Source of the DNA: Candidatus Kuenenia stuttgartensis
GTDB taxonomy: Bacteria; Planctomycetota; Phycisphaerae; Phycisphaerales; SM1A02
Assembly: GCA_945902075.1 (NCBI GenBank)
Contig: CAMDMA010000035.1
Span: 1 to 37,230, forward strand
Direction of reading: 5' to 3'
Length of the DNA: 37,230 bases
Program-made: the position numbers and the translations under genes
Notes under the pieces: model-generated
What the model saw: the letters and a program-made list of their open reading frames with translations, nothing else
Databases searched by the model: none
Told to the model about the DNA's origin: nothing
Shown: piece after piece, positions 684 to 19,341 of the stretch
Layout of the letters: each line of letters opens with the position of its first letter
Position numbering within the stretch: the first letter of the stretch is position 1

Positions 684-1543
684 AAGGTGAATACGAATGC
701 GAGGAACGGACCGCTTAGCGTCATGTCGTAAACAAAGTCGTCGCCTTCGCCAGAATGGTCGATGTCGATTGCTCGGTAGCCCGCACCGAGCGAGAAGGTG
801 TCGTTGAAACGGATCTCAAGGCCCGCGAGGGCGTTCCACACCAGGTCGGAGCCGCCGCCGCCGACATCACCACGCAGGAAGAGGCCAAAATGCTCGTTGA
901 GGTCGTACCTGCCGCGGAGGCCGATGAATGCGTCGGCCCAAGTTTCGCTGCCGTTCACGGCAAAGGGCGTGACACCATCGGTGCCCGCGATATCCGTGGA
1001 GAACGAGTAAAGGCGCACGCCAGCGATCGCCTCGAGCCGGCCGCCAGGTCCTTCGCCAATGCGAGCGTACGACTGAGGTGCAGTACCCAAAGTCTCATTG
1101 AGCAATGAGTAACCGCCCCCAAACTCAAAGATGCCTTGGGTCATGGACACGTCTGCGGATGCGGTGCCGTCGGCAAGACTCGAGCCGAGATCGATGTACA
1201 TCACATCGCCGAAAATGCTGATGGTGTCGTTTGAAATCTCAAGGTGAAGTTCAAGCCCGAAGTTGAAGTTCTCAGAGATCAGTTCGAAGGTCTCGCCGAT
1301 GTCTTCATCAACATGCGCCGTCTGGCCGGCAACGCTGACGGTTCCGTTCTGCGCGGGGACCCAGACATAGGGCGCGAGCACAACCGCCCAGAGTGCGTCG
1401 TCATCGCTCGCCGTGGTCGGGTCCGCATGCGTCGCGGGTATGTCCGCATGCGCTGGGGGAGTGTCCACCACCGCGGTTTGGCCATGAAGCGGGAGTGTGC
1501 ACAGGATCAGCGACGAGGGGATCGATGCACGAAGTGTGGGCAT
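680..1543 (-). CDS. Outer-membrane beta-barrel-like protein
   Basis: The 287-residue product has a putative signal peptide (MPTLRASIPSSLILCTLPLHG). Alternating strands with glycine and aromatic residues follow: LWAVVLAPYVWVP, FNFGLELHLEI, SIFGDVMYIDLG, GIFEFGGGYSLL, RLEAIAGVRLYSF, DAFIGLRGRYDL, GLFLRGDVGGGG, ALAGLEIRF and FSLGAGYRAIDID. It ends in FLAFVFTF, a C-terminal aromatic typical of outer-membrane barrels recognised by BamA. The layout resembles small porin-like or OmpA/OmpW-type barrels, and no ligand can be assigned. I chose the ATG at 1543 because it places the hydrophobic segment at the N terminus; upstream extensions add a basic non-signal stretch. Confidence 0.7.
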   Translation of the reverse strand: MPTLRASIPSSLILCTLPLHGQTAVVDTPPAHADIPATHADPTTASDDDALWAVVLAPYVWVPAQNGTVSVAGQTAHVDEDIGETFELISENFNFGLELHLEISNDTISIFGDVMYIDLGSSLADGTASADVSMTQGIFEFGGGYSLLNETLGTAPQSYARIGEGPGGRLEAIAGVRLYSFSTDIAGTDGVTPFAVNGSETWADAFIGLRGRYDLNEHFGLFLRGDVGGGGSDLVWNALAGLEIRFNDTFSLGAGYRAIDIDHSGEGDDFVYDMTLSGPFLAFVFTF

Positions 1544-1628
1544 GGGAGTTGCGCGAGCTCTCGGCGCGGTGGATTGACGATGGCACAACGGCGCCGGCCG
1601 ATCCTATCCACGTCGATGCCAGAGGCAA

Positions 1629-1949
1629 TCACCAGTTGCGCACAACCGCAGCACCTGCAATGACTCCACCGAGGATCTTTGCTCCATTGAGGAGATCCCC
1701 GAGCGCCAATGGGTAGAGCGGATTGAGCACCACCGCCATGGCTGCGCACAGCCCGCACCACACGGCACTTCCATCCTTACCGAAGACGACAGCGCCGACG
1801 AGAAAGACCGCCGAACTCGCCCAACGCACGATGTCGTTGTTGACGGCAGTGGGCAACATGCCGAATGTCTGAAAGAAGAGAAACCCGCTCAACAGCGCGA
1901 GTGGGATCAGAATCGTCTTGCCGGAGCCGCTGCCACCTTTGGATGCCAT
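1629..1949 (-). CDS. DUF6804-like small membrane protein
   Basis: The 106-residue product has a short Gly/Ser/Lys N terminus (MASKGGSGSGKT) and four predicted membrane helices: ILIPLALLSGFLFFQTFGML, IVRWASSAVFLVGAVVFG, AVWCGLCAAMAVVLNPLYPL and GAKILGGVIAGAAVV. The pattern RW...A-V-LNP-P (NPLYPL) between helices 2 and 3 matches the DUF6804 group of small bacterial membrane proteins, which have no established function. The ATG at 1949 gives the usual length; the longer frame adds 27 residues running through the neighbouring terminator region. It lies 85 bp upstream of the barrel gene on the same strand. Confidence 0.65.
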   Translation of the reverse strand: MASKGGSGSGKTILIPLALLSGFLFFQTFGMLPTAVNNDIVRWASSAVFLVGAVVFGKDGSAVWCGLCAAMAVVLNPLYPLALGDLLNGAKILGGVIAGAAVVRNW

Positions 1950-1983
1950 GGTGGTCCTATCGGCAGTGCCCGACGACGCGCCG

Positions 1984-2017
1984 TAAAACGAAAGCGGCCC
2001 CGCTCGTACGGGGCCGC
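1984..2017 (-). terminator. Rho-independent terminator of the tricorn gene
   Basis: An 8-bp GC stem GCGGCCCC (1994-2001)/GGGGCCGC (2010-2017) has an 8-nt loop. On the minus strand it is followed by a T-rich TTTCGTTTT tract. It lies about 30 bp past the stop codon at 2047. Confidence 0.85.
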
Positions 2018-2046
2018 CCTCATCCTGCACTCAACTGTGGTAGCCG

Positions 2047-5000
2047 TTACTTGTCGCTCTCCGGAAGCCCCATGCCACTTCGGTCGGGGTATTTCGGCTT
2101 TGGCGTTGGCTTGTAGCCGTCCGTTTCAATCTGCTTGAGCAAGAACTCAACGGCGGCTTCCAGTTGCGGGTCGCCGCCGTCCTTCATCTTTGCAGGGTCG
2201 TCGATCACGACCATATCCGGATCGATGCCGTGACCCTCAACGCCCCAGGTTCCATCGACTTCGTAGAAGCCAAAGGTCGGCACGCTGATGGAACCACCGT
2301 CCAGGAGGCCGGGGTTGCCAGAGATTCCGACAAGCCCGCCCCAAGTGCGTGTACCGATGACCGGGCCGAGTTTGTTGTGCTGAAAGAGCCAGGGGAACAT
2401 GTCGCCGCCCGAACCAGCAAGGCCATTGGTCAGCATTGCTTTCGGTCCGCGATGTCCATCCGGTGGCCACGCGCCATCACGCGCATCGCGGCGCGCCCAG
2501 TAGTTGGTGACCGGACGGTTGAGGAGTTCGATGAAGCGCGTTGGAATCTGGCCGCCGCCGTTCCAGCGATCGTCGATCAGAAGGGCCTGCTTCATGCGCT
2601 GTCCGTAGAACTGGCGCACAAGTTCCGTTTGCCCATCGACGCCGGTATTCGGGACGTAGAGATAGCCGATCTTACCGCCAGAAAGTTCCTCAACACGGCG
2701 GCGCTTCGACTCAACCCACGCGCTGTAGTTGAGCGCGTCTTCGCTCGCGAGCGTCGTGACGACGACATCGGTCGCGTCCTTGTCCATCATCGGCTTCTTC
2801 GAAATGGTGAGGACCACCGACTTACCGGCAAGACCGATGAACGGCGCCCAAGGATCGGTGGTCGGATCGACAGGCTCGCCATTGACCGCAAGGAGAAAAT
2901 CGCCCTCGCGCACACCGAGACCTTGCGCGGCGAGCGGACTGCGCGCGTCGTTGTCAAAGGTCGCGCCCGTGGTGAACTTCGCAAGTTTCCACGCATTCGC
3001 GAGCGTACCGTCGTCATTTTTGACCGACTCGAATGTGACGCCGAGGAGTCCGACATTTCGACTCGGCGCATTCTCGACATCGCCAGGACCTTGAAGGTAC
3101 GCATGACCGACATTGAGCTCTGAGATCATCTCGGCGATGAGATAGTTGAGGTCTTCGCGCGTGACAACCGCCGAAAGCATCGCCTCATACTTCGCGCGGA
3201 TCGCGTTCCAATCAACTCCGTGCATACCCGGGTCGTAGAAGTAGTCGCGCATGATGCGCCACGCATCGGCGAGAATTTGTGCGCGCTCGTGGCGCGGGTG
3301 AACCTCGACCAACATCGGACTCGCAACGATCGGCTTCGCAGTGGCACCCGCAGTGGAACCCGCGATCGAAGCACCGCCACGGCCGCCGAGGAGAAGCTTC
3401 TTTCCATCGGCAGACACGCTAAACCGCATCCCAGTTACACCAGTTGACTCGGTTGGCGACTTTGACGAGAGGTCGAGAATGCGGACCGAGCCATCGCGAC
3501 CGTAGAGGAGCTCATTGCGGTCATTGAATCCAAGCGAACCGAAGCTCCCGACAGCAGCCGGAAGTTTGATGGCGCGTGCCTCAAAGCCAGCAAACGGCTG
3601 CGTGGCATCGAGGTCGATGATGACATCCTTCTTCTCAGGCTTCTTGCCAGCACCTTCGCCATCCTTCTTGGCGGCAGTGCGCGTGCCGGTGATCTCTGTC
3701 GTCTGCGGGCCACCTTCGCTTTCGCCGCTGGCGGTGCCAGTGAGGTTGTCGCCATCGATCACGGCGACGATGGTGAAGGGCAGCTTCATGAAGAGGCCGG
3801 AGAGTTTGAGGGTCTTCGATGCGGCGTCCCATGAGCCGCTTGCCTCGCCAGCGCCTTGCTTTGAGGAGAAGGTGGCCTTGACGCTTGCGTCATCGACAAG
3901 CGTGATCTCAAAGGTCACCTCAAGCGGGCCGTCTTTCATCGCGACGACACACTTCCAACTACCCGCGGGGCCCGTGGGAGCTGGGGCCGCGGTGCTTGAC
4001 TCGTCCTTCTTCTCATCTTGCTTCTCATCTTGCTTTTCGTCTTTGCGCTCGTCTTGCAGCGAGGTCGCGACGGCGGTTGCCGCTTCAAACTCTGCGCCGC
4101 GTCGGCGTCGTCCGCCACCGGGCATTCCGCCGCCGGCTGGACCGCCTGTTCCCGGCGCGGCCGCTGGAGCGTCGCCAGCGGGCGCGGGCTTGCCATCATC
4201 CTTTTGACCTTCCTCGTCGCTTGTCGGAAGCCACGGAAGTTTGAAGTCCTTCTTGAGAGGAACCGCCATCAGCACTTGCGAGTTGTTGTAGATCCACGTC
4301 GTATCGAACTCGCCGTAGGTGGGCGCGAAATTGCGTTGGCTCGTGAAGACAAGCCAGTCGCCCTTGCGGTCGAATGTCGGATCGGAGTCAGAGTAGAAGC
4401 CACTTGTGACTTGCGTGCGCGCCTTGGCGGGGTCCGCCTCGCGCGTATCAAAGAGGTAGATCGCGTCGAGTTCCGTGGTGTCGCACGAGCGCGACCAGGT
4501 GATCCACCGCGAATCGTTGGAGAACGAGAGAGCAACCGCCTGCGGAGCTTGCGGATTTTTGTCGAGGAAAACCGCGGAGCCGTCCTCGAGTTTGACCAAT
4601 GTGATGTTGCCTGCCTTGTCTTGCAGCACGACCGACTTCGAGTCGGGCGACCAATCAATCGAGGTTCGGAATGAACTTGGCACGCCCTCCACAGGTTTCG
4701 TGATCTGCTTGATCTCGGCCTTGCCCGGCTCGATCTTCCCGTCTGCGGGCATGGTGTAGAGCTCGTACTCGCCAGTTGCATCGGAGAAGTAGGCGATGGT
4801 CTTGCCATCTGGGCTCCACGTTGCGTTGCGCTCAAACACGCTGTCGGTGCGGGTCATGTTGCGCGGTGTACCGTTCTCGGCAGGTGCCGACCAGATATCA
4901 CCTCGGCCGATCACCGCGACGCGCTTTCCGCTCGGCGAAATCGAAGCCCCTTGGATGTTCTCCGCAGCATCAACCGTCGCCACGCGCAGCGTATCGCGAT

Positions 5001-12591: not shown

Positions 12592-13749
12592 TCAGTCAAT
12601 ACGTCGGCCCGGCCACGGTGCAGCGAAGAGATGCGCGTCTGACTCGTGGACATGAAAGGCAACGACGCTTTGGATCGGCAATTCCTGCGCATCGGCGCTT
12701 GGCACGCGCGCGCGAAGCGTGCGGCCGTCTGCGCGCAGGCCAATGAGGTCGGTGAACAATCCAGCAGGTTCGCGGGCGAGCAGCTCTGCCTCGAAGGTGA
12801 TGGATGGCGCGGTCGGCACGCCAACGCGGATTTGCCATGGGCGTAATCCAACGAGCGTTGAGCCGGTTGCCGACGCGCGCGAACGCAGCATCGAGAGGCG
12901 CGCGCGAAACTCCGGCGAAAGCACCGCGTTCGCGCAGTTTCCCGTTTCTGTGATCTCGACGACGTGCATCCCGAGGTCGTCAACGAGCTGCGCAACCTCA
13001 AGATCAACGGGGCGCGCGGCAACCTCGTTTGCCGGGCCGAACGCCCGCACGCGTCCACCGATCAGAACGAGCAGGTCGTCCGCAATCGCGAGCGCATCCG
13101 TCGGATCATGCGTGACGACAATTCCGGCAGAACCGGTCGAGCGTTGGAGTTCGCGCACCATCTGGCGAATCGTAAAGCGGTTGGTGCGATCAAGATTTGC
13201 GAAGGGCTCGTCGAGGAGGACCAACTTTGGCGAGCGAATAAACGCCCGCGCCACCGAAACGCGGCGACGCTCGCCTGCGGAGAGGGTTGCGGGGAGGCGC
13301 CCGAGCAGTGGCTCAATGCCGAGCGTGCGGGCAAGACTCTTGACGCGATCATGCCGACGCTGACGCGGTTCATCGCGGGGGAGTGCAGCGGAGTCGATGT
13401 TTGCGACGACAGTGAGATGCTCGTGCAGCGCGGCGTCGTCGAAACTCATACCGATACCGCGCGCCGTGGGGTCGAGTCCGGCACAGTCGATCCCATCAAA
13501 TGTGATCGTGCCGCTTGTCGCGCGCTCAAATCCAGCGAGAAGCGACAACAGCGTACTTTTCCCCGCGCCGGACGGTCCAACAATCGCAAGCAATCTTCCG
13601 CGCGGTACAGCGAGCGAAACTTTGTCGAGTGTGAATTTGGGTTCTTTTTCCGCGCCGCGACGGAAACTGAGTTCGTGCACGCGAAGCCCGCTCGCCGCCC
13701 GGTCGACGGTGTCAAGCCCGAGCGTGCTCGAACCAGACCGCAGCGACAT
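12592..13749 (-). CDS. MalK-like ABC transporter ATP-binding protein with degenerate motifs
   Basis: This is a 385-residue ATPase of the CUT1 sugar-importer type: nucleotide-binding domain at about 22-240, then a C-terminal OB/TOBE-like regulatory region (STLVGLRPWQIRVG...FEAELLAREPAGLFTDLIGLR). Walker A is GPSGAGKST (58-66), Walker B LVLLDEP (176-182) and the H-loop histidine 214 (VTHDPTDAL). Two motifs deviate: the signature is LSAGE rather than LSGGQ, and the Q-loop position reads FDDAAL where MalK has FQSYAL. No permease or binding-protein gene is nearby, so it either serves permeases encoded elsewhere or has another role. Its start codon shares one base with the prfB stop (TAATG), and a glycogen-debranching gene follows, which fits sugar uptake. 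Confidence 0.85.
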   Translation of the reverse strand: MSLRSGSSTLGLDTVDRAASGLRVHELSFRRGAEKEPKFTLDKVSLAVPRGRLLAIVGPSGAGKSTLLSLLAGFERATSGTITFDGIDCAGLDPTARGIGMSFDDAALHEHLTVVANIDSAALPRDEPRQRRHDRVKSLARTLGIEPLLGRLPATLSAGERRRVSVARAFIRSPKLVLLDEPFANLDRTNRFTIRQMVRELQRSTGSAGIVVTHDPTDALAIADDLLVLIGGRVRAFGPANEVAARPVDLEVAQLVDDLGMHVVEITETGNCANAVLSPEFRARLSMLRSRASATGSTLVGLRPWQIRVGVPTAPSITFEAELLAREPAGLFTDLIGLRADGRTLRARVPSADAQELPIQSVVAFHVHESDAHLFAAPWPGRRID

Positions 13750-14856
13750 TAGCCCCGTTCCGCCCGACGCCGCTTGAGTTCCGCATCGATGAACGGCGCG
13801 ATATCGCCGTCAAGAACCGATTGTGGATTTCCAACCTCGTATCCCGATCGGTGATCCTTCACCCGGTTGTCGTAGAAGACATACGAGCGAATCTGATTGC
13901 CCCAGTCACGAGTCACTTTGCCGCCGGTTGCGGCGCTGATCTCGGCTTCGCGACGATCTTGCTCGAGGATTTCGAGTTTGGCCTGCAGCACTTCGAGTGC
14001 CTGCTTGCGGTTCTGCGGCTGATCGCGATACGTGCTCGCAACCACCTGCAGCCCGGTCGGAAGGTGAGTGACGCGCACGGCACTTGCGACCTTGTTGACG
14101 TTTTGTCCACCAGGTCCAGAGGCGCGCACGAACGGCGTAATCTCGAGGTCTTTCTCCGGAATCACGAGGTCAGTTTCCTCGAACTCGGGGGTGACATCGA
14201 CGGTGGCGAAACTCGTTTGGCGCTTGCCTTCGGCATTGAACGGCGAAACACGCGCAAGTCGGTGCGTGCCACGCTCGCAACTCATATACCCGTAGCAGAA
14301 GGGGCCACTCACGCGATAGGCGACCTCACTTACGCCAGCTTCGGCGCCCATCGTGCGGTTGATCTCCTCGATTTTGAAGCCCATCTGCTGAAAGTAGTAG
14401 AGGTACATGCGCTCAAGCATGCCCGCCCAGTCTTCGGCCTCTGTGCCACCGGCACCTGCTTGGATCGCGACGTAGCAGTTGCGATGGTCGTGCTTGCCGC
14501 TCAGGAGCGACTGCTGCTCAACCTTCGCCATCTTTTGCGTGAGGGTCCAGAGAGTGTCATCGACCTCGCGAAGAAGCGCGGCATCGCCGGCTTCTTTCGC
14601 GAGTTCGTAGCCGACCTTTGCGTCCTCGAGAAGGCCAACGGCCTCTTCGAGCGGCTCGATCTGCGCTCGGATGATCTTGCTTTCGCCGATCGTCTTCTGC
14701 GCGGCCTTTGGATTGTTCCAGAATTCAGGCGCATTCATCCGGTCGGCAAATGCGGCCCGTTCGGCGATCTTTTGATCGTAGTTAAAGAGAGTCGCGGAGC
14801 GTATTGATCCGCGCCTCCAACTCGTCGATCACCGGCTGATGAGCGTCGTAATGCAT
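13749..14856 (-). CDS. Peptide chain release factor 2, made by programmed +1 frameshift
   Basis: RF2 releases finished proteins at UGA and UAA. Frame 1 starts at the ATG at 14856 (MHYDAHQPVIDELEARINTL) and stops after 24 codons at TAA 14782-14784. Skipping one T continues as NYDQKIAERAAFADRMNAPEF, matching the conserved continuation of E. coli RF2 (LDYDAKKERL). The joined product is 368 residues (E. coli 365). It has the tripeptide anticodon SPF (HRLARVSPFNAEGKR), which marks RF2 rather than RF1, and GGQ with Q at about residue 251 (SGPGGQNVNK), the peptidyl-transferase motif. An internal ATG at 14738 would give only a truncated factor. The coding sequence must be read as a join: 14856-14785, then 14783-13749. 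Confidence 0.95.
14781..14787 (-). promoter_or_regulatory. RF2 programmed frameshift site CTT TAA C
   Basis: On the coding strand the site reads TCT CTT TAA C TAC GAT. The slippery CTT, in-frame stop and following C are as in other RF2 genes, but the stop is TAA instead of TGA. The Shine-Dalgarno-like AGGGGG that sits 3 nt before CTT in E. coli is absent here (CTC CGC GAC TCT); the nearest GGAGG lies more than 20 nt upstream. Low RF2 would normally slow reading of the stop and favour the shift; TAA can also be read by RF1. Confidence 0.88.
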
Positions 14857-14919
14857 GGGGGGCGAAGTGTAGCGCGATTGTCTGGCGCACGCGTCGCACG
14901 AATCACTACGATTCCGCCC

Positions 14920-16140: not shown

Positions 16141-16380
16141 GGCACCGGTGGGTTGTCAACGGTGCGGCTCGGGAAGTCGCGCCCACGATAGATGTCCGCG
16201 CCAGTCGGACCCAGTGGGGATGGGGTGCCCTCTCAAGGGGCGATTGCCCTAATCCGGCCAAGCTGGAGTCGATGCGGAATGCTCACGCATTTCCCGGCCG
16301 ACGACTGCCGATGGACGGAAGCGCACATTGGCGCCCTCTTGGGTGCAGCGCTTCACACGATCCTGAAACGGAGAGTCCCT
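16141..16380 (+). promoter_or_regulatory. 240-nt leader before the carbonic anhydrase-chemoreceptor gene
   Basis: No convincing gene lies here. The reading frame of the downstream gene is open back to 16192, but that part is basic and unstructured and would push the signal peptide away from the N terminus. Visible elements are inverted repeat GCACCG/CGGTGC (16142-16147/16160-16165), with no T tract, a small AATGC/GCATT hairpin near 16280, and a good ribosome-binding site GGAG at 16370-16373, 7 nt before the ATG. I could not match a known riboswitch. Confidence 0.5.
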
Positions 16381-19341
16381 ATGTCATGGCATCCTTGTGT
16401 TCGGTTGAGCATCGGCCTCTTCGTCGCTTCGTTGGCTTCTGTGCTCGCCATCACGTCTCAGGCTGCGGCCAGCACCGCGGATGAAGTTTTGGCAGCGCTG
16501 AAGGACGGAAATGCGCGCTTTGTCGCTGGTACTTCGGTCCATCCGCACACCGGTCATGACCGCGTCGTCGAGACAAGTTCTGGTCAGGCTCCGATGGTGA
16601 CGATCCTCGGCTGTTCCGACTCCCGCGTCCCGCTTGAGCACATCTTTGATCAGGGGATCGGCGATGTCTTTGTCGTGCGCGTTGCAGGAAATGTCGCTGA
16701 TGTCGATGAGCTCGGCTCGGTCGAGTACGGCACCGGACATCTCAATACGCCGCTCCTGGTGGTGCTCGGTCACTCAAAGTGTGGCGCCGTCAACGCAGTC
16801 GCGACTGGTGCGGTGCTTCATGGAAGCATCCCTGGTCTCGTGGACAACATCATCCCCGCCGTCAAGCGCGCACGCGCCGCAAACCCGGGTCTGAGCGACA
16901 AGGAGCTCGTTCCCTTCGCCGTGCGCGAGAATGTGCTTGAGTCGATCTCGACTGCGCTTCGCCAGAGCGAGGAAGTTCGCCATCTTGTGGCGGAGGGAAA
17001 GCTCCGCGTCGTTGGTGCTGTTTATGACATCGACACAGGCTCGGTCGATTGGCTTGGTGAGCATCCTGATCAGAGTGGGCTCCTCGTGCAGACCGCCAGT
17101 ACAGCGGCCCAGCCGACTCCGGGTGGCCACGGCGCTCCGAGAGAGGCATCCGCTGCATCCCACGGCGAACCACGCGCCGAACTCGCCGCGACCGGTGTCT
17201 TTGCGGCTCCCGAATCAAAGGTCGTCGTACGCGCGCCGTTCGGCAGTTCTGTCGGCAAGGCGCATGCATTTGATTTTGTCGCCATGACTGAACACGACTC
17301 AAGCCTGTTGTCGACGATGTTTGCCATCGCCGCGGCGCTCGCGCTTTTGGCGACGGTCATCGCATGCTTTCGGCTCGCGCGCTCCATCGGACCGGATGGC
17401 ACGGTCTCGCATTCGATCACCCTCGGCGCAAAGCTCGCCTGCGGTTTTGGTCTTCTCGCAACGGGCATCCTTTCGATCGCCACCGTAGCGATGCGCTCGA
17501 ACGAGCAGGTTTCTATGGCGATGCGGCAGATGGAATCACGAGTGTCTGAGGTCGGAGTCCTTGAGGGGGCTAAAGTCAATCTTGCGGGCATGAGGCTTGC
17601 CGTGAAGGGCTTTTTGATCGGCAACAGCGAGGATGAACTTCGCAACTACTCGAATGAGGCTGCATCGTTTACGGACAAACTCGCGACCGCAAAGTCTGCG
17701 ATCAAAAACCACGAGCATCTCAAGTCGCTTACGACGATCGAGTCGGACGTCCGCGAATATGACGCGACGTTTGCCCAAGTTGTCCGAAAAATCGACGAGC
17801 GCAACGCTGTAATTGAGACGCAGATGGGCGTTGTCGCAGCGAGGGCAAGTACGCTTCTCACGGAGGTTGCCGCAACGGCGCACGCAGACGGCGACACGAC
17901 GAAGGCGCTTGTTGCGGCCGAGGCGGGCGAGCACTTCCAGACTGCACGGCTCGATTTCTTCAAGTATCTCCGCTCACATGACGTCGCCCTCGCGGATGCC
18001 GCGAAGGGGCAAGCGGAAAGCATGGCCGTACTTTTGCAGCAACTTCAGGGCGAAACTACGAACCCGAAGCGCATTGCATGGCTCACCGAAGCCAAGGCCG
18101 CGGCAAGTTTTTGGACATCATGCATGAACGAAGCGATTGTGTTGCAGCACGACCGCGACGCGCTCGTGCGGCAGGGACTTGACCGCATCGGACCAAAGAT
18201 CCACGAGGCAGCATCGACGCTTGCGACAACGCTCCTCGTCGAGCAGACTGCTGCACGCGAGCGTGCCGAGGCAGCCGCGACGTCAGCCCGAACATTGGTC
18301 ACCGGATTTTCGGTGGCGATCGTGATCGCCGCGGTGGTGATCGCCTGCGCGGCCGTTCGCAGTGTGCTTACTCCACTCCGCCGCCTTGTCGCGAGCATCC
18401 TCGAGATCCAGTCGACGCGTGACCTGACTCGTCGCACCGGCGTGACGTCGCTTGACGAGGTCGGTCGCGTCGGTCAATGCTTCGATGGGCTTGTCTCGAC
18501 GCTTCACGGCATTCTTGCCGACGTCAACTCAGGTGCAGCGGAGATCGACGCTGGTGCAGCACAGATTGCCTCCGCCAGCCAGTCGCTGGCCGAGGGTGCG
18601 AGCCGCCAGGCCGCGAGTCTTGAGGAAATCAGCGCTTCCGTTGAGGAGATGTCCTCGACGACACGACAGAATGCCGAAAACGCACGCGCCGCGAATGAAG
18701 TGTCGGAGTCCTCGCAGAACGCAGCGCACCACGGGCAACTTGAGATGAGGCAGATGGTCGAAGCGATGTCCGAGATCAAGCAGTCGAGTTGTGATATCGC
18801 GAAGATCATCAAGGTCATTGATGAGATCGCTTTCCAGACCAATCTGCTCGCACTCAATGCAGCTGTTGAGGCAGCTCGCGCAGGTGAGGCAGGCAAGGGA
18901 TTCGCGGTGGTTGCCGAAGAAGTTCGTTCGCTTGCACGACGTTCAGCCGAGGCGGCAAAGAGCACTTCGGTGATGATCGACGACTCGACTGCCCGCGCCA
19001 ATCGTGGAGTGGAAATCGCCGCGCGCGTTGGCCAGTCCCTCGATGAAATTGCCGGCGCGACCGCGCGTGTGAACGAGCTGCTGACCCAGATCGCGACGGC
19101 CTGCGATGAGCAGGCGAAGGGAATTCACCAGGTCAACACCGGCGTGAGCGAACTCGATCGTGTAACGCAAACAAACGCGGGGAACTCCGAGGAGCTTGCC
19201 TCCGGCGCAGAAGAAACGGCATCTCAGGTCTCCTCGCTGCAGGCACTTGTCGGACAGTTCAAGACAGCGGGGCATGGCGCGGCAACGACTCGACCGCTTG
19301 GAGGTCACGCGGCAACCGGTTCGGTGCGTCGCGCGGGCTGA
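16381..19341 (+). CDS. Beta-carbonic anhydrase fused to a methyl-accepting chemotaxis receptor
   Basis: One uninterrupted 986-residue frame. Residues 1-30 are a signal peptide or anchor. Residues 32-230 form a complete beta-carbonic anhydrase: CSDSR with C78, D80 and R82, then HSKCG with H131 and C134, the expected zinc ligands and active-site dyad. An Ala/Pro/Gly/His linker (235-305) follows. Membrane helices at about 307-333 and 349-371 form a hairpin. Residues 372-635 are a helical bundle like MCP four-helix sensors, followed by a helix at 638-660, HAMP (661-714) and the signalling domain (715-960) with the tip [20 protein letters not shown] and [15 protein letters not shown]. Positive charges ([15 protein letters not shown]) put the loop and HAMP inside, the anhydrase and bundle outside. 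It probably senses CO2/HCO3-/pH (inference). No CheR-binding pentapeptide at the C terminus and no che genes nearby. Confidence 0.92.

Follow-up and report, generated by a model that had tools for sequence, protein, structure and literature searches.

A beta-carbonic anhydrase fused to a transmembrane chemoreceptor, a candidate receptor for inorganic carbon or pH in two distant bacterial groups

To our knowledge, how bacteria sense CO2 or bicarbonate for navigation is poorly understood. Here, we describe a gene that joins a predicted exported beta-carbonic anhydrase (CA) to a chemoreceptor (MCP) in a single frame, found in a window of 37,230 nucleotides (the whole stretch of DNA that was analysed). 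We read its product, with a rough probability of 0.4, as a transmembrane chemoreceptor for inorganic carbon or pH in which the tethered CA makes a product that a periplasmic helical bundle would read, the reading of that product being the step that we infer. Rather closer to even odds, and still short of them, is the broader proposal that the protein belongs to a family of enzyme-input chemoreceptors, spread over at least two distant bacterial groups, that would sense CO2, bicarbonate or pH through a built-in CA module combined with varied sensors and signalling domains. A first-pass annotation of this DNA had proposed a CO2/bicarbonate/pH taxis receptor; as a whole that interpretation is partly supported, and taxis is a candidate function suggested by the sequence.

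As that annotation had described, one open frame of 986 residues joins the two halves, with its stop ending at 19341, and Pro_CA, HAMP and MCPsignal all score above their Pfam cut-offs. The domain order is export signal, beta-CA, disordered linker, two-helix membrane hairpin, periplasmic bundle, third membrane helix, HAMP and MCPsignal, with the following features.

16370..16375, + strand: likely ribosome-binding site GGAGAG (sequence and homologues), ending 5 bases before the 16381 ATG
16381..19341, + strand: CA-chemoreceptor fusion gene, 986 residues (open frame and Pfam)
16381..16470, + strand: N-terminal export signal, residues 1-30, predicted from hydropathy, with a hydrophobic signal-like stretch at 6-24
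16471..17085, + strand: beta-CA domain, residues 31-235 (Pfam Pro_CA at residues 74-222, E 1.4e-38, above cut-off; structure model)
16612..16626, + strand: codons 78-82, with C78 (zinc) and D80 and R82 (dyad), from alignment
16771..16782, + strand: codons 131-134, with H131 and C134 (zinc), from alignment
17110..17301, + strand: disordered linker, residues 244-307 (pLDDT <50)
17191..17277, + strand: juxtamembrane motif TGxFxxP..RxxFGxxxGKAxxF, residues 271-299, also retained in CA-less relatives
17314..17370, + strand: membrane helix 1, residues 312-330 (hydropathy)
17434..17490, + strand: membrane helix 2, residues 352-370 (hydropathy)
17491..18294, + strand: periplasmic HBM-like helical bundle, residues 371-638 (predicted structure, homologues)
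18295..18351, + strand: membrane helix 3, residues 639-657 (hydropathy)
18355..18504, + strand: HAMP domain, residues 659-708 (Pfam, 28.7 bits against a cut-off of 25)
18697..19167, + strand: MCP signalling domain (MCPsignal), residues 773-929 (Pfam, 7.6e-50, 169.6 bits, above cut-off)

The longest mechanical version of the frame starts at 16192, but the ATG at 16381 is the better candidate start, since GGAGAG lies upstream of it, GGAG recurs in family members (within 20 bases of the chosen start in 14 of the 19 inspected) and a signal-like stretch follows. The earlier annotation had itself raised the prospect of two separate proteins, the second initiated at an in-frame ATG at 17284, just ahead of membrane helix 1. 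We consider this highly improbable and dropped it on start-site, promoter and homologue evidence: no GGAG-like motif precedes that ATG, its Met is absent from 3/3 aligned homologues, and its region holds no promoter-like sites and one terminator-like site against 3.4 in shuffles. No stop falls between the CA and receptor halves in any of 23 fused frames (the window protein and those at other loci), and an identical join in all of these open frames rules out an assembly accident.

Alignment bears out the five residues first read from the translation, C78, D80, R82, H131 and C134. All five are retained in 24 of the 25 CA domains of the 23 fused frames, in 3/3 fused fragments and in 87/87 stand-alone rows aligned with them, counts that exclude presumed duplicate loci, seven stand-alone CAs that are not duplicates (L126-L132) and CA matches weaker than E 1e-25. 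The sole exception is L136 (genome G191), in which two zinc ligands are replaced by Ser and Asn. Structure prediction, proposed in the annotation as a check, gave a CA domain model with a mean pLDDT of 89.8 whose best structural match is tetrameric Rv3588c; chains A-D of 2a5v take ranks 1-4, and chain C has 40% identity and a TM of 0.89 on target. Against NCBIfam NF011765 (PRK15219) the window protein scores 141.6 bits, below the cut-off of 221. By domain, modelled fold, zinc ligands and Asp-Arg pair we assign this half to the beta-carbonic anhydrases, and the enzyme is apparently intact. Pairwise dN/dS among the window protein, L009 and L010 is 0.11-0.18 for the CA (dS about 1.2 in both comparisons with the window and 0.31 for L009 versus L010), 0.05-0.06 for the MCP part, 0.17-0.25 for the bundle and 0.31-0.38 for the linker; we take the CA to be under purifying selection in the window's lineage, and both halves to be kept by selection.

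From the signal-like stretch and the three membrane helices found by hydropathy, the CA and bundle are predicted to be periplasmic and the HAMP-MCP part cytoplasmic, in agreement with the periplasmic enzyme and two-helix membrane hairpin proposed before. HAMP, MCPsignal, a flanked sensor predicted to be periplasmic and CheA in the same genome together identify the window protein as a putative transmembrane MCP. Its bundle is modelled at moderate confidence with six helices, of which three are long; the full-length model scores low (mean pLDDT 72.3, pTM 0.38), and its domain arrangement was therefore left unused. HBM (PF16591, cut-off 29.8) gives no match to the window protein at E 0.01. The same family is above cut-off in L009 (31.7), L010 (38.3) and L134 (42.4) and below it in L133, L137, L138, L144 and L075; the related four-helix families 4HB_MCP_1 and CHASE3 are likewise above cut-off in L009 and L010. 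A profile built from 15 bundles matches the HBM-type receptor structure of ancestral PcpI, which presumably carries an HBM domain, at 2.5e-8. PcpI is described in PMC9543091 as an auxin chemoreceptor, with HBM among the sensor domains of its strain. Judged from these homologues, the bundle looks HBM-like in the window's lineage. In L046, it is 4HB_MCP_1 that is above cut-off (28.0 bits, cut-off 27), and in some Desulfobacterota members the second sensor is a shorter four-helix bundle, as predicted from such matches; hence, CA and hairpin appear to be constant, with bundle and signalling domain variable. The second sensor bundle of the first-pass annotation thus stands, a periplasmic second sensor being found in the fused frames read, but its type now has to be given by lineage.

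Linker length ranges from 71 to 181 residues over the 23 fused frames. The longest, in L106 (G071), has 12.7% His and is also rich in Gly and Ser, and stand-alone CAs of family f2 also have His-rich tails at the C terminus; we raise the question of zinc supply or buffering for both. At the other end of the protein, L044, L075, L106, L133, L143 and L167 carry a DD..FxxF/Y-like tail, absent from the window protein, which we take to resemble the CheR/CheB docking pentapeptide.

The same domain order, which the annotation had suggested seeking in databases, recurs well beyond the window. Fused frames occur in at least 8 of 151 genomes of its family (whole-protein query; one across two contigs, one interrupted), in at least 18 of 400 genomes of its order, covering three families (profile spanning the CA, the linker and the start of the bundle), and in at least 6 of 340 genomes of the class of a Desulfobacterium MAG (second profile; one genome with two genes), all of them lower bounds obtained by scoring the best 4 or 5 candidates per genome. 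Among 68 named loci at least three are fused, in Desulfobacterium sp. MAG9 (L044), a Desulfobacterales MAG (L046) and a Desulfobacula MAG (L075). Several frames are incomplete: L046 and L166 run into a contig end, L075 is without its N terminus, L011 has a run of N, and the fused gene of G148 is divided over two contigs (L108, L012). L107 (G092; 958-4541), which is related to the L106 fusion, has a frame change in the linker and a stop within the MCP domain, and is a pseudogene or an assembly error.

A phylum sample of 392 genomes gave 11 with a match at E 1e-60, eight of them outside the order; seven of these eight frames are 244-426 aa long, and that of G985 is long with the CA at its end and no MCP. 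No fusion outside the order was seen in this sample, in which the frames of G985 and G958 were read. In seven other frames of family f2, long or interrupted, the CA is present and no MCP was found, and 60 plasmid records match parts of the protein, none covering 80% of it. On the CA tree, the nearest relatives of the CA domain are stand-alone exported beta-CAs from the same order and from Desulfobacterota. A single origin of the fusion is not supported: this tree requires 10 changes for 28 fused rows, at least six of them forced by starred branches, the exact number being unsure because of long branches. A different pairing is seen in a Magnetococcales carbonic anhydrase (L041, 4967-6055), which is followed by an NTF2-like Cds6_C domain.

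Within the family, the CA comes in two copies, in one, in a zinc-dead form or not at all. L140 (G226) and L141 (G214) each have two tandem CA domains with zinc and catalytic residues complete in both, those of L141 being sisters on the CA tree. Four receptors (L014, L019, L143 and L144, the last ending at a contig end within the MCP domain) are without CA and retain the juxtamembrane motif and hairpin. The first part of L143 matches CA-bearing L106 up to the start of the CA (57% over 49 residues) and its next residues match the stretch after the CA (L169, 65% over 20; L075 and L044 more weakly), so that L143 seems to have lost the domain cleanly. In the bundle tree, which omits L044, L046, L075, L167 and L169 and has long branches for L136 and L019, CA presence switches four times, at least three of them forced, and zinc-dead L136 is sister to CA-less L143 (95/87); CA-less rows cluster on it no more than under shuffled labels. 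The CA-less relatives, together with the CA that has lost two zinc ligands, indicate that the CA is a module and not an indispensable part. L147 (G318; 353-1936) has CA and membrane helices together with a stretch that resembles HAMP but scores below cut-off; it shows no bundle and ends at a contig end, and no complete relative of it was found in 163 genomes of its family.

The window's own genome has CheA (PF02895 above cut-off at two loci), three flagellin matches and another CA, a lipoprotein-like stand-alone one that looks exported and has all five residues, which makes bulk catalysis by the receptor unnecessary. No known inorganic-carbon transporter was found among nine window neighbours and ten neighbours of four homologous loci; the window neighbour at 12592-13749 is an ABC-transporter ATPase with undefined substrate. 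Neighbour genes of the window's fusion recur in G072 and G093 and not in G116, G226, G453 or G310. The gene adjoining the CA-chemoreceptor of G453 (L191, 8741-10477, - strand) has an MCPsignal match below threshold (31.9 bits against a cut-off of 34.6). Elsewhere in the window, at 14738-14860 (- strand), prfB (release factor 2) seems to start out of frame with the rest of the gene, the two frames meeting at CTT TAA C; this appears to be a programmed +1 frameshift with TAA in place of the TGA of the usual prfB site.

Chemotaxis memory is seconds long, and uncatalysed CO2 hydration takes tens of seconds. In the reading we favour, the exported CA would bring CO2, HCO3- and H+ into equilibrium beside the receptor within that memory, the bundle would read the CA product, be it a proton or some small carboxylate-like anion, and the signal would reach CheA by way of HAMP and the MCP tip, resulting in movement along CO2/HCO3-/pH gradients. 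With linkers of such length and a separate membrane helix, the CA is unlikely to be coupled to the receptor by rigid mechanics; a tethered enzyme is the better reading, and it also fits the predicted disorder of the window linker better than a rigid lever does. The near-complete retention of zinc and catalytic residues, a CA dN/dS below that of the bundle, recurrence in the order and in Desulfobacterota, tandem CAs in two genomes, the second periplasmic sensor and a genome with CheA and flagellins all speak for this enzyme-coupled receptor, although the receptor is kept in the four CA-less relatives, one fused CA is without two zinc ligands, the second sensor varies by lineage and no inorganic-carbon transporter adjoins the gene among the proteins scanned. 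PMC9600550 reports that HBM domains bind malate, acetate and other carboxylates at the dimer interface and that Tar is a pH sensor, but also that the HBM domains of McpS and McpQ bind ligands over about 7 pH units; HBM is not known as a pH sensor. Such robustness weighs against a pH-reading bundle and makes an anion the more likely signal.

Alternatively, the CA may itself be the sensor, with pH or bicarbonate flipping it between closed and open forms and oligomeric states and thereby altering receptor packing and signalling, catalysis being incidental. Its best match, Rv3588c, is described in PMC3230598 as alternating with pH between a dimer that is blocked and a tetramer that is open (the idea of a switch also draws on PMC7287614), G191 retains a CA domain minus two zinc ligands, and L147, as far as its contig reaches, has a CA and no bundle. 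Even so, we regard this as unlikely: linker and hairpin separate the CA from the signalling helix, catalytic residues are almost always conserved, and it is closeness to Rv3588c that ties this CA to the type II pH-switching beta-CAs, in which Asp takes the place of water on the zinc at lower pH in step with the oligomeric state. Equally doubtful is a receptor that serves as a mere anchor, with an exported CA hitch-hiking on a chemoreceptor for, say, an organic acid and having no signalling role. It would suit the CA-less receptors of the family, the apparent clean loss, the pairing of CA with varied bundles and signalling domains, and the organic acids sensed by known HBM receptors (PMC9543091); yet a chemoreceptor is unnecessary for simple anchoring, and so odd a pairing recurs over distant groups, with repeated changes on the CA tree. 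The genome's lipoprotein-like CA cuts both ways, counting against a mere anchor and also against the need for a local product, which it may make redundant. That the CA is a decaying passenger would accord with the grouping of zinc-dead L136 (a long branch) with CA-less L143 and with the repeated changes of CA presence on the bundle tree, but the low dN/dS of the CA in the window's lineage and the 24 of 25 intact domains make it improbable.

The open-access literature searched yielded no paper on a CA-chemoreceptor architecture, in keeping with the annotation's claim of novelty; each half is of a known kind, and what appears to be undescribed is their combination, along with its recurrence and natural variants. 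If the enzyme-coupled reading is true, a receptor with its own CA would be a direct molecular answer to navigation by CO2 or bicarbonate and, as a chemoreceptor with an enzyme for its input, a rarity, and the series of single, tandem, zinc-dead and absent CA would offer ready comparisons of catalysis, binding and mere tethering. In mammalian CO2 smell, carbonic anhydrase II makes bicarbonate that guanylate cyclase D reads; the likeness is one of working only, given separate proteins, an unrelated receptor and an animal system. SulP transporter-CA fusions also join a beta-CA to a membrane protein, and no SulP or STAS domain is among the Pfam matches of the window protein. Rv3588c of M. tuberculosis (2a5v, 1ym3) is the top sequence and fold match and has the same zinc, Asp and Arg residues, but it is a stand-alone enzyme without a receptor, and the nearest relatives of the CA domain, stand-alone exported beta-CAs near NF011765 (PRK15219), are without membrane hairpin or MCP. 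The HBM chemoreceptors McpS, McpQ and PcpI of Pseudomonas, which we take to be without an enzyme domain and without the extra membrane hairpin, have, like homologues of the window protein, a periplasmic bundle of the HBM kind, and they share HAMP and MCPsignal with the fusion.
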